Assembly: GCA_000227525.2 (NCBI GenBank)
Contig: AGIG01000028.1
Span: 496,001-560,000 of the forward strand
Source of the DNA: a gamma proteobacterium HIMB30
Lineage (GTDB): Bacteria > Pseudomonadota > Gammaproteobacteria > Pseudomonadales > Litorivicinaceae
Reading direction: 5' to 3'
DNA: 64,000 nt
Shown here: in pieces, positions 11,155-22,879 of the stretch
Layout: each line of letters opens with the position of its first letter
How positions within the stretch are numbered: position 1 is the stretch's first letter
Program-made: the position numbers and the translations under genes
Notes under the pieces: generated by a model
What the model saw: the letters and a program-made list of their open reading frames with translations, nothing else
Told to the model about the DNA's origin: nothing
Database searches by the model: none

Positions 11155-11157
11155 CAA

Positions 11158-11330
11158 AGACCCAAGTTGCCGCTGTCAGTTTGGCCCTTGAACCCAATGG
11201 TTCAAGGCGGGAAACGCAAACACACATTAGGCTTTCCGTCGACGGACCTGCGCACCGTGTGTTGTGTGCTTCCCTGGAATAAGATTATCGGCTCAGGGAC
11301 ATCACCGACTGGCGAACAACCCAGGAGCTC
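11158..11330 (-). ncRNA. ssrS: 6S RNA
   Basis: The minus strand between zapA and ygfA contains the hallmarks of 6S RNA, the regulator that binds sigma-70 RNA polymerase by mimicking an open promoter. Near the 5' side is GTTCGCCAGTCGG and CCCTGAGCCGATAA, almost as in E. coli, and near the 3' side is CCTTGAACC followed by GGTTCAAGG, the conserved closing hairpin. The ends pair as CCTGGGTTG (11325-11317) with CAACTTGGG (11169-11161), with some G-U pairs. Context zapA-ssrS-ygfA is the conserved one. Ends are approximate to about ten bases. Confidence 0.92.
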
Positions 11331-19657: not shown

Positions 19658-19669
19658 TTGTCTGGACAA
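19658..19669. promoter_or_regulatory. Inverted repeat in the DnaJ-like/MerR-type divergent gap
   Basis: TTGTCTGGACAA has 5-base arms (TTGTC/GACAA) around TG. It lies in the 51-bp gap between the divergent J-domain and MerR-type genes, so it could be the regulator's own operator. A second GGGACAA copy of one arm follows at 19674-19680. The evidence is only symmetry and position. Confidence 0.3.
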
Positions 19670-19699
19670 AAGTGGGACAACATTGCCACACTAGCAGTT

Positions 19700-20707
19700 A
19701 TGGCTACTTTAGAAACGATTTCAAGTATCGATACAGCTCCTCGACATCCGATCCGACTGGTCGCCAATCGAACGGGTCTGACGGTCGACTTGATTCGCGC
19801 CTGGGAGAAACGTTACCACGTTGTTGAGCCTGCGCGTAGTGATACCAAGCGCAGACTCTACAGCGATTATGATATTGAACGGCTTCGACTGATTCGGATC
19901 GCGAAACAAAACGGGCGCCGCTTGGTTGATGTGGCCCCGATGTCGCTCGAAGCCCTTCGCGACGTGGTCTCCGAAGATAGCCGTTTTGATGCAGCACAGG
20001 ACAATCCAGCAGAGGTCTATCGGCCAAGCTGGTCTAACCCGCTGGAGTCCACAGATACACAAGATGCTGTCGACGCCATGTTGTTCGCAATCCAAACCAT
20101 GGATCAGCACCGCTTTGATCAGTTGCTACAAGAGGGCCTTGTGAAGCAAGCGTTGCCTGCATACCTTGAGACTGTGATCGGACCGCTGCTCCGCGAAATT
20201 GGCGAATCCACGCGCCTCGGAAAGCTCCGGATTGCACACGAGCACATGGCAACTGCGCACTTGAGGACGTTTATTGGGGCTCTTCGATTTCGTGAAACCT
20301 TCACCGGTAGCGAACCGAAGATCGTGATCACGACACCAACCGGACAGCTTCATGAGCTCGGAGCACTGATGATTGCCGCGCTTGTCTCAGTTGATGGCTG
20401 GTTACCCGTTTACCTCGGACCGAATACGCCGGCGGATGAAATCGCAGCATGCGCAATGCAATCTGGAGCACGTGCGGTGAGCTTGTCGATGACTTATCCA
20501 GCCGACGATCCGCGGATTCCGACCGAATTGACCCGGTTGCGATCACAACTTGACCAGAAGATCCCAATGTTTGTCGGTGGTTCCGCTGCGGCCCATCATC
20601 AAGAGTTGATTGGCCGGTTGGGTCTCCAGTCACCGTCGTCCTTAAATGGCTTGCGCCAATCGTTGAACGAACTTCGCGATCGAGGCTTCAGGCTGCAATC
20701 GGCATGA
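19700..20707 (+). CDS. MerR-family regulator with cobalamin-binding domain (CarH/LitR-like)
   Basis: 335 residues. Residues ~17-66 form a MerR winged helix (VANRTGLTVDLIRAWEKRYH and a KRRLYSDYDIERL wing). Residues ~120-200 match the B12-binding helical cap and ~205-330 the Rossmann-like B12 domain, including TGQLHELGAL with the HxxG cobalt-ligand motif (H218) and the E181-H182 pair of the cap. Family members CarH and LitR use adenosylcobalamin as a light sensor. Here the conserved capping Trp of the Wx9EH motif is replaced by Thr (T171, in IGESTRLGK), so light sensing is doubtful. ATG 19700 is chosen over an in-frame TTG at 19658 that falls inside the inverted repeat. Coupled to the next gene by ATGA. 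Confidence 0.85.
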   Translation: MATLETISSIDTAPRHPIRLVANRTGLTVDLIRAWEKRYHVVEPARSDTKRRLYSDYDIERLRLIRIAKQNGRRLVDVAPMSLEALRDVVSEDSRFDAAQDNPAEVYRPSWSNPLESTDTQDAVDAMLFAIQTMDQHRFDQLLQEGLVKQALPAYLETVIGPLLREIGESTRLGKLRIAHEHMATAHLRTFIGALRFRETFTGSEPKIVITTPTGQLHELGALMIAALVSVDGWLPVYLGPNTPADEIAACAMQSGARAVSLSMTYPADDPRIPTELTRLRSQLDQKIPMFVGGSAAAHHQELIGRLGLQSPSSLNGLRQSLNELRDRGFRLQSA

Positions 20708-21024
20708 CGTTGGCAGATCTGAAAATAATGCTCGCGAAAGGTCAGTCGCCGACTCTTGAGATCCATGCATTTGAGGGAATTATCTATTTGGTGAAGATCG
20801 TGACAGAGGTTGGTGAAGTCATGCTGAAAAAAGCCGATGGTGACAATCAGGTGTTTAAGTCATCAACACAGGCTGGCATGGCATTGGCTGATGTGGGGGG
20901 AACTGACGCTGTCATTGTGCATCAATGCGCGTATGACGAGGTGATTGGTCACGAGCCATGCCGAACTGAGGATCCATCTCTGCGTACACCAATGGATTTG
21001 CGGCTACTTGCCGGGCTTGGCTAG
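20704..21024 (+). CDS. DUF6482-like small protein
   Basis: 106 residues, soluble, no cofactor motif. The sequence (ADLKIMLAKGQSPTLEIHAF, GIIYLVKI, then AVIVHQCAYDEVIG) resembles small DUF6482 proteins of pseudomonads, whose function is unknown. Its ATG overlaps the stop of the MerR-type regulator, so both should be made together. Its end overlaps the 3' end of the convergent Nudix gene by four bases. Confidence 0.65.
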   Translation: MTLADLKIMLAKGQSPTLEIHAFEGIIYLVKIVTEVGEVMLKKADGDNQVFKSSTQAGMALADVGGTDAVIVHQCAYDEVIGHEPCRTEDPSLRTPMDLRLLAGLG

Positions 21025-21869
21025 CTTTTGAGCTGGTTCCTTCGCTCACACAGTGACGCATACTCTGGCGTATTGTCTCCGGTCAAAATGCCGTGACGAA
21101 TCGCGAAATCAATAATCACCAGATTACAGTTGTATTTAAAAGCGTCAGTCGTTTCGATGATTGTCAGTACCTTTTGAATTGGTAGTCGCTCAAAGGATTC
21201 CACTTCACCATCCTGGCACTTGGGTACGAAACTATCCGGAAGTTCGAGATCGTAACAATACAAAACATCGCGTTTTAATCCGCGTCCATCGGTGTATCGA
21301 TAGCTGACAGTCCCGGTTGCAATGGATTGACTGGCTTGCGCTTCGGAAATACCAGCTTCTTCAGCGCATTCTTTGATTAAATTTTCGAATAGACCGAGCC
21401 CGGCCGGTTGGCCACCAGCAACCATATTATCGAGTTTGCCTGGAAATGTTGGCTTGCTCTGTGATCGCTTGGCCACCCACAACTCGATGCCTGCTTGGGT
21501 TCTCACAAAACCATTGAGATGTACGCCGAAGGTGAGGCAACCAAGCGGTGCGGTCAATGTGCGCTCCATCACAAAGCGGGTTGGATCATTGACGGATGCT
21601 TTAACCGGAAAGGGTTCGCCAACCCAACTGTGGAGAAGCCCGTCTTCATAAACCTCTTTTGCAAATCGCGCGAAGATTTGGTTGAGATCTCCCTCCGATA
21701 AGCTCGGAATCACAAGACCCAGTTCTGATTCCTGCCACAGACCAAAACTTAACCCGCGTTCTTTGAACCTTTCTTGCACATAACCCAATAGTGCATCCCC
21801 CTGAAACCAGGGCGTCCAAGATTGCAGATCCGCGTTGTGCGCACGGTCAAAATGGTCAAGATAACTCAA
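21021..21869 (-). CDS. Tnr3-type Nudix hydrolase (DUF4743)
   Basis: 282 residues: an N-terminal DUF4743 domain and a Nudix domain with the box GGQPAGLGLFENLIKECAEE, where the usual REUxEE is KECAEE, as in the Tnr3/AtNUDX20-24 group. Members of that group hydrolyse damaged thiamine diphosphates (oxo- and oxy-forms) so they cannot poison ThDP enzymes; the role here is inferred by family. I chose the TTG at 21869 because it overlaps the previous stop as TTGA and has GGAG six bases ahead; a TTG at 21881 would add four residues. Last gene of the suf operon. Confidence 0.82.
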   Translation of the reverse strand: MSYLDHFDRAHNADLQSWTPWFQGDALLGYVQERFKERGLSFGLWQESELGLVIPSLSEGDLNQIFARFAKEVYEDGLLHSWVGEPFPVKASVNDPTRFVMERTLTAPLGCLTFGVHLNGFVRTQAGIELWVAKRSQSKPTFPGKLDNMVAGGQPAGLGLFENLIKECAEEAGISEAQASQSIATGTVSYRYTDGRGLKRDVLYCYDLELPDSFVPKCQDGEVESFERLPIQKVLTIIETTDAFKYNCNLVIIDFAIRHGILTGDNTPEYASLCERRNQLKS

Positions 21870-22879
21870 GAGCGACTCCAATAACTTGCAAACAAAGGAA
21901 TACAGACACCCATCGCGAGCACACGAATCAGGTGATGTGTTGTGACGTAGAGTCCATCAGCACCGGCTTCTAATGCAACAACAGGCATGACCTGGAAGCC
22001 ACCGGGCATGAATGCGAGTGCGGCATCGACAAATGGAAATCCGAGTAGTTGGTTCACGGCGAAACTACCAACCATTGCCAATCCAACCGCCACTAGAGTC
22101 GAAAGTGCAGCCGGTGGGAGCGTTCTGAGTAATACGCCGAGCCCCTGTCCAATGATATCGATCCCAATGCGCCAACCAAATAGCAACATCGCAAGACTAA
22201 TAAATGAAGGAGGGGTGTTGAGTTGAATGAGCCCTGAAAGACTGAGGAAGGCGCCGCCAAAAATACCGATGATCAAACCAGGCGTTGTGATTTTCAAATA
22301 GCGAAGTACACCCGTGACTGTCCAAGCGATCGGAAGAACAATGATCCATGACACAAAGTCCGACTGCGTGAAAACAAAGACTGTTTCAACTTGTTCCGGT
22401 ACGACAAACAGAACAGGAACGATTAATGTGAGGAATGCGAGGCGCAGACTCTGGTAGACCGCGACTTGCGATAACGCACCGCCATAGTGCTCGGTGACCG
22501 CAAGTGCCGACGATAGATTACCGGGCGCTGCAGCCATATGAGCACTGATTCGATCAAGATTCAGTAGTTGCTGATTGAGTTTACCGACCAGCCATAAGAT
22601 GAGCACCATACAAATGATCATAATGAGAAGACTGACAGGCCACAGTTGAATGCGGTCAACGATATCTGGGGTCACCTGACTGCCGAGTGCGATGCCGATC
22701 AGTAAGATTGCAAAATGATGAGCGTCAACACCGGGCTTTTGATTGATTCCTGTGAAGTGCGCCAGACACGCAACCGCAACAATGGGCCCGATCATGGCGC
22801 CAAGAGGAAAGTTGATGGCTTCGAAGACAGTGGCTGACGCTGCTGACACCAGTCCAAACACAAGTAAAGGCTGACGCAT
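21866..22879 (-). CDS. AbrB-family inner-membrane permease
   Basis: 337 residues, almost entirely hydrophobic, in two homologous halves (each with a PLGAMIGP / FPFVDAALAFMPGG-type glycine-proline motif, the second giving GGFQVMPVVALEAGAD). This is the COG3180/AbrB family of ten-span putative transporters, not a DNA-binding protein despite the name. No substrate is known. Coupled to the Rieske gene (TAATG) and the Nudix gene (TTGA). Confidence 0.85.
   Translation of the reverse strand: MRQPLLVFGLVSAASATVFEAINFPLGAMIGPIVAVACLAHFTGINQKPGVDAHHFAILLIGIALGSQVTPDIVDRIQLWPVSLLIMIICMVLILWLVGKLNQQLLNLDRISAHMAAAPGNLSSALAVTEHYGGALSQVAVYQSLRLAFLTLIVPVLFVVPEQVETVFVFTQSDFVSWIIVLPIAWTVTGVLRYLKITTPGLIIGIFGGAFLSLSGLIQLNTPPSFISLAMLLFGWRIGIDIIGQGLGVLLRTLPPAALSTLVAVGLAMVGSFAVNQLLGFPFVDAALAFMPGGFQVMPVVALEAGADGLYVTTHHLIRVLAMGVCIPLFASYWSRS

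Follow-up and report, generated by a model that had tools for sequence, protein, structure and literature searches.

What does a CarH-like regulator respond to, and which genes does it control, once the tryptophan that packs on its adenosyl group has been lost? This question is raised by a 64,000-nucleotide stretch of DNA (the window) from the gamma proteobacterium HIMB30 of the Litorivicinaceae (GenBank contig AGIG01000028.1, positions 496,001 to 560,000, forward strand), in which a first-pass annotation made from the letters alone had pointed to a CarH/LitR-like B12 regulator with Thr171 in place of the Trp of the Wx9EH motif, and had conjectured that the protein might bind another cobalamin or sense cobalamin level or redox. 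Described isolates of this clade include HIMB30 and LSUCC0096 (PMC8269220). On balance, we lean toward the view that the gene encodes a CarH-derived repressor with an altered, noncanonical cobalamin response, which would act on the rhodopsin operon and on itself. The gene and the parts of it on which the argument turns are as follows (window coordinates):

19700..20707, + strand: CarH/LitR-like regulator, 335 amino acids, ATG start, with a MerR helix-turn-helix, a four-helix cap, and a B12-binding Rossmann domain
19751..19930, + strand: MerR winged-helix domain, residues 18-77 (Pfam MerR_1), with the recognition motif R33-A-W-E-K-R-Y39 (RxWE[RK]RY)
20075..20284, + strand: four-helix cap domain, residues 126-195 (Pfam B12-binding_2 and model helices)
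20210..20215, + strand: T171-R172, aligned with the Trp-His pair of CarH (W131-H132 in Thermus thermophilus)
20240..20245, + strand: E181-H182, the retained EH of Wx9EH, from the alignment with T. thermophilus CarH (TtCarH)
20351..20353, + strand: H218, the predicted lower axial cobalt ligand, in Q216-L-H218-E-L-G221, from the alignment

The descent from CarH/LitR proposed in the first-pass annotation is borne out by both sequence and fold. The closest solved relatives by sequence are T. thermophilus CarH/LitR (PDB 3whp/5c8d, E ~1e-26), and a Foldseek search with the AlphaFold model of the regulator (mean predicted local distance difference test [pLDDT], 76.3; predicted template modeling score, 0.59) returned T. 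thermophilus CarH at the top (E 8e-15), with a Z score of ~20 over ~195 residues in structural comparison. The B12-binding domain spans residues 207-304 (Pfam B12-binding), and the MerR domain has the RxWE[RK]RY helix of CarH, whose residues R33, W35, E36, R38, and Y39 are invariant in the alignment of orthologs; as far as sequence can tell, the regulator reads DNA in CarH fashion. CarH is also its top NCBIfam family, at 113.4 bits versus an equivalog cutoff of 400 bits, a threshold that we judge to be narrow because none of the 369 genomes sampled from the class attains it. A profile scan found no second CarH-like gene in the regulator's genome, and the gene is retained in 20 of the 22 genomes of the genus.

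In the alignment with TtCarH, T171-R172 takes the place of W131-H132, while E141-H142 corresponds to E181-H182 and H177 to H218. All five residues are unchanged in 19 of 19 rows (the window protein and relatives L001-L018, 67-97% identity), and H218, E181, H182, G215, G240, and P244 are constant across the same rows, one unread residue apart; the two full-length sister-genus proteins (L039 and L040) also have Thr-Arg. This fixation led us to reject a sequencing error at T171. A misaligned Trp nearby, which would have undone the first-pass observation, was likewise rejected, as the cap contains no Trp anywhere: the Trp residues of the protein are W35 in the DNA-reading helix, W111 in the linker (pLDDT <50), and W234, which follows the first Rossmann helix. 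The retention of the MerR helix, E181-H182, and H218 holds as well, by Pfam, by the TtCarH alignment, and by invariance. Because the intact Wx9EH that defines CarH is missing here (T171 in all 19 rows, with E181-H182 present), we do not class the regulator as a CarH photoreceptor. That the lost residue matters agrees with published descriptions, which call the Trp crucial for capping of adenosylcobalamin (AdoCbl) and for oligomerization (PMC8156234, PMC9304148, PMC11796333).

Two further deviations accompany the loss. Arg172 rather than His follows the missing Trp, which closes this route to a bis-His light adduct, and Q216 replaces the D/E of the D/ExHxxG motif, so that Q216-x-H218-x2-G221-x41-S263-x-T265-x27-GG departs from the CarH pattern D/ExHx2G/P-x41-SxT/V-x22-27-GG at its first residue. 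Both are less telling than the Trp loss, since Gln at position 216 also occurs in Trp-bearing kin (four of the six Gln rows) and the residue following Trp varies widely among Trp-bearing homologues (His in 4 of 46).

How rare is this loss? In the class sample, the CarH model matched 78 places in 69 genomes with an E value no higher than 1e-15, and 70 of these places were fetched for residue comparison; the eight left out comprised the window's own gene, additional pieces of two genes already fetched (G218 and G163), and five places that were either weak or secondary (G419, G418, G324, and the second places of G209 and G423). The EH pair and the His ligand are retained in 48 of the 70 rows, and 46 of these 48 have the Trp, the remaining two, from a single genus, reading Cys-Arg. 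Some of the automatic open reading frame picks, apparently L063, L084, L159, and L164, probably represent the wrong frame or gene and belong to the 22 rows outside the intact count. The family tree of Trp-less forms that the first-pass annotation had called for (52 rows) unites the Thr-Arg proteins (8 rows), the Cys-Arg proteins (4 rows), and L154, a long branch, in one clade with support of 97/87; Trp-bearing L087 and L141 lie immediately outside, followed by Trp-Arg proteins of family f28. The simplest reading of this single clade is that the Trp was lost once within the CarH-like family. Two members of the clade, L156 and L157, have ER for EH and Tyr for the His ligand, and the Litorivicinaceae appear to have retained a predicted cobalamin site that these cousins let go. 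By eye, L156 and L157 adjoin FabA-like and membrane desaturase/hydroxylase-like genes, and ACA repeats stand upstream of them at 11- and 12-bp spacing. The complementary loss is seen in a MerR-B12 protein of another family (L042/L220, genome G045), in which Trp is retained and EH is changed to ER.

If the regulator still reads DNA as CarH does, its sites should resemble CarH operators, which are described as tandem 11-bp repeats of the form nnnnTnnACAn (PMC9304148, PMC8156234). Such an array lies at its own start:

19663..19695, + strand: candidate autoregulatory operator, three tandem 11-bp units TGGACAAAAGT / GGGACAACATT / GCCACACTAGC, immediately 5' of the start codon
19142..19648, - strand: divergent DnaJ-domain gene (Pfam DnaJ) with a hydrophobic N terminus, on the other side of the 51-bp intergenic operator region

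The DnaJ-domain gene partners the regulator in most orthologs (exceptions, L016 and L017), and the ortholog consensus of the promoter, TGGACAAAAcT / gGGACAAcaTT / GcCACACTA, consists of three 11-bp units that resemble the TnnACA unit of CarH operators (PMC9304148, PMC8156234). The derived family motif GGACAAN5GGACAA has two exact matches in the genome, one in this operator and one 49 bp 5' of csrA, and the operator is the window's only match with zero or one mismatch. Three one-mismatch matches in G000 (L055, L056, and L057) and the matches in L103 and L105 were dismissed as chance. Outside the genus, TnnACA repeats were found upstream of the L040 regulator (two units, P = 0.006). P values for individual promoters come from dinucleotide shuffles (300, 1,000, or 500 in separate tests), and closely related genomes do not supply independent promoters.

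The second set of repeats points to the rhodopsin operon. In the genome (L118; Pfam), this operon encodes rhodopsin, a polyprenyl synthetase, a flavin amine oxidoreductase-family protein in the place of crtI, phytoene synthase, lycopene cyclase, and a beta-carotene dioxygenase, and is named here proteorhodopsin-crtE-crtI-crtB-crtY-blh; phytoene synthase is present in 13 of 16 genomes of the genus. With at most two mismatches, GGACAAN5GGACAA occurs in five of six rhodopsin promoters (P = 0.001 to 0.023 each), the promoter of G002 having been left out since no rhodopsin gene turned up in its stretch (L119). These matches are confined to a spacing of 5, save one two-mismatch match at spacings 6 and 7 (L124), and G000 has two equal matches, the best-ranked 61 bp from the rhodopsin ATG and the other at the homologous place. 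Read on the opposite strand, the promoters show four repeats, ATGACA/TTGACA/TAGATA/TGGACG in G000 and TTGACA/TGAACA/TGGATA/TGGACA in G005, and the four-unit TnnACA score exceeds that of shuffles in G000 (P = 0.007), G005 (P = 0.003), and G011 (P = 0.003). We also scanned 23 whole genomes (16 of the genus) for four TnnACA units at an 11-bp pitch with at most one mismatch, taking unit and pitch from the literature and the number of units from the repeats already observed in G005. The scan yielded four matches, one each in G005, G008, and G011 of the genus and one in G030 elsewhere; the three genus matches are all upstream of rhodopsin, with their near edge ~163 bp 5' of the ATG. A reversed-pattern control gave no match in the 16 genus genomes and two elsewhere.

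A third candidate target is csrA, which the regulator probably controls as well, less surely than the rhodopsin operon and its own promoter. AGGACA-n5-TGGACA or a close form stands 46-53 bp 5' of the ATG in all 16 csrA copies from 15 genomes of the genus, always at an 11-bp pitch and with no more than two mismatches to the family motif, while csrA promoters of other families (seven loci; the second copy in G030, L188, left out) gave a single match, on the other strand and at a different place. At the genus loci (L165-L179 and L187), the conserved GGACA pair is situated between the -10 region and csrA. The pair may be an operator or an RNA site of CsrA. CsrA recognizes GGA, and the proposal that the repeats are its RNA-binding sites and not a DNA operator is a serious contender, if not quite the likelier one; it concerns csrA only, which alone would drop out as a target, and is compatible with repression of the rhodopsin operon and of the regulator's own gene. 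The repeats are close to the expected transcript start, another conserved GGA lies downstream, and both copies in G007 (L176 and L187) carry AGGACG, retaining GGA and losing ACA. The spacing of exactly 11 bp in every copy argues against RNA sites, however, as does the unit of L171 and L177 that has become TAGACA, in which GGA is lost and TnnACA retained.

Several observations weigh against the assignment of these repeats to the regulator. At the own promoter, units 2 and 3 are without the T of TnnACA, and no sigma-70 consensus promoter at the operator passed the scan. Among the rhodopsin promoters, the family motif has no match within two mismatches in G012 (P = 0.77); the four-unit score is not significant in G012 (P = 0.50) or G014 (P = 0.997), and the best match of G003 (P = 0.027) is at a different spot, so that under the degenerate TnnACA consensus three of six are individually significant at that site. 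G005, G008, and G011 are near relatives, which makes their three scan matches nearly one event, and G008 has the rhodopsin operator and no regulator match in a genome that is 82% complete. The csrA pairs mostly reach P values of 0.09-0.4 under the TnnACA consensus. TnnACA repeats are not significant upstream of L039, L143, L145, L156, L157, L213, L214, L216, or L219, and the Cys-Arg relatives, like L039, have no significant upstream repeats. The repeats could belong to another regulator.

Directly behind the regulator lies a gene that may take part in its function:

20704..21024, + strand: DUF6482 protein (Pfam PF20090), 106 amino acids, its start overlapping the regulator stop

Of 18 relatives, 17 have this gene directly 3' of the regulator, as do both sister-genus loci; it is not adjacent in L015, and in L016 a 16-bp gap comes first. 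The proteins of the relatives are acidic (isoelectric point [pI], 4.5-6.0), and the translationally coupled DUF6482 protein has invariant H73-Q-C-x-Y-D-E-V-I-G and KSST motifs. None of the publications searched names DUF6482.

Taken together, we infer from the sequence that the repressor would bind tandem 11-bp direct repeats overlapping the promoters of its own unit, including the DUF6482 gene and perhaps the divergent DnaJ-like gene, of the proteorhodopsin-crtE-crtI-crtB-crtY-blh operon, and probably of csrA. Bound repressor would block RNA polymerase, and its release would permit synthesis of the rhodopsin photosystem. Since Trp-His has given way to T171-R172 but E181, H182, and H218 are fixed, the protein most likely still binds a cobalamin, with a switch that would be independent of a Trp-packed adenosyl group. 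It would respond either to a different upper ligand or cobalamin state, or it would, like CarA, do without cobalamin and be released by some other input, DUF6482 being the candidate partner. It is tempting to go further and picture the Trp-less branch as a dedicated switch of both the proteorhodopsin-retinal operon and csrA, reading cobalamin (another upper ligand, supply, or redox state) through a cap chemistry other than adenosyl/Trp and with DUF6482 as its partner, a fuller scenario that we consider unlikely.

The CarA-like alternative proper, in which repression is independent of cobalamin, the B12 motif survives as a vestige or for structural reasons, and release depends on a partner protein, strikes us as somewhat unlikely. 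The loss of EH and His ligand in L156 and L157 within the same Trp-less clade and the small acidic gene coupled to the regulator speak for it. A vestigial site would have no need of the invariant H218, E181, H182, G215, G240, and P244, however; CarA is of a different lineage; and kinship of DUF6482 with CarS is unsupported, as a model of the protein (pLDDT 86) compared with the PDB by Foldseek gave no match below E 0.001 (the best, at E 0.038, being an uncharacterized protein). Alternatively, Thr-Arg might tolerate the adenosyl group, and the regulator would be an ordinary AdoCbl light sensor that green light frees from DNA. The published signature GxxW, EH, GxxH, GxxxP (PMC11796333) is kept save its W (GEST, EH, GQLH, GPNTP), the photoactive CtMerR is described as having Arg at the following position, too (PMC11796333), and a rhodopsin target suits light control. 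The cofactor is plausibly made by the genus, with the PF01923 adenosyltransferase in 15 of 16 genomes (PF02572 in none of the 16); therefore lack of AdoCbl offers no ready reason for the Trp loss and was rejected as its cause. Given that the Trp is described as crucial for photoreceptor activity, for AdoCbl binding, and for assembly of the head-to-tail dimer (PMC9304148, PMC8156234), and that it is present in 46 of the 48 intact homologues, we find such a sensor quite unlikely. A decaying pseudo-photoreceptor without a specific role would account for the lost Trp, the Gln for D/E, and the further losses in some clade members and is highly improbable for a gene that nearly all genomes of the genus retain and in which the residues at issue are fixed and the promoter is conserved.

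Two other features of the window were noted:

11156-11330, - strand: 6S RNA (Rfam RF00013, 110 bits)
21021-21881, - strand: NUDIX/DUF4743 gene, convergent with the regulator unit

A gene resembling the latter is apparently at the same place in the sister genus (L039 and L040).

Trp-less CarH paralogues are already known in the form of CarA. Among the publications retrieved, we found none that describes a Trp-less CarH clade in Gammaproteobacteria, places an operator of CarH type before proteorhodopsin, or links CarH/LitR-type regulators to a proteorhodopsin operon, for which, to our knowledge, no dedicated transcription factor is known. If our preferred reading is correct, it names a candidate regulator of such an operon with mapped sites, which may control bacterial phototrophy by a route so far undescribed. 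Phototrophy in abundant marine bacteria, and perhaps their global regulator CsrA as well, would then be linked to the supply of B12 or to light. A lineage that lost the capping Trp once and retained the rest would also offer a natural test of the role of this residue.

How does the regulator compare with the systems described so far? With CarH of T. thermophilus, B. megaterium, and M. xanthus, which works as an AdoCbl-dependent tetramer taken apart by light, it shares the MerR, cap, and B12-binding architecture, the EH pair, the His ligand, the RxWE[RK]RY helix, candidate operators of 11-bp direct repeats at promoters, and carotenoid genes as likely targets. It differs in the Trp of Wx9EH, in the Arg that follows, in the Gln for D/E, in the TtCarH interface pair R176 and D201 (hand-counted numbering), which aligns with L217 and N242, and in a likely target operon that includes rhodopsin. 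CarA of Myxococcus is described as missing the Trp, retaining EH and the B12 motif, and acting without B12 (PMC9304148, PMC8156234); the likeness extends to the absent Trp, to the retained EH and B12 motif (here with Gln for D/E), and to a carotenogenic promoter as likely target. However, CarA belongs to the myxobacteria (Cystobacterineae), coexists with CarH, and uses CarS, which is reported from Myxococcales only (PMC9304148, PMC8156234), whereas here a lone CarH-like gene, whose nearest kin are gammaproteobacterial in a tree that included no myxobacterial CarA, has a DUF6482 neighbor. CtMerR of Chloracidobacterium and the photocobilins are close in cobalamin-domain fold (Z 20-21), and CtMerR shares the Arg after the Trp position, but both retain the Trp, and the regulator ends after the Rossmann domain, without the C-terminal globin-like bilin domain of photocobilins. 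Finally, the Trp-Arg MerR-B12 proteins of family f28 (L213-L219), from the same order, share the EH pair, the His ligand, and an Arg at position 172; unlike the regulator, they retain the Trp and lie outside the Trp-less clade.
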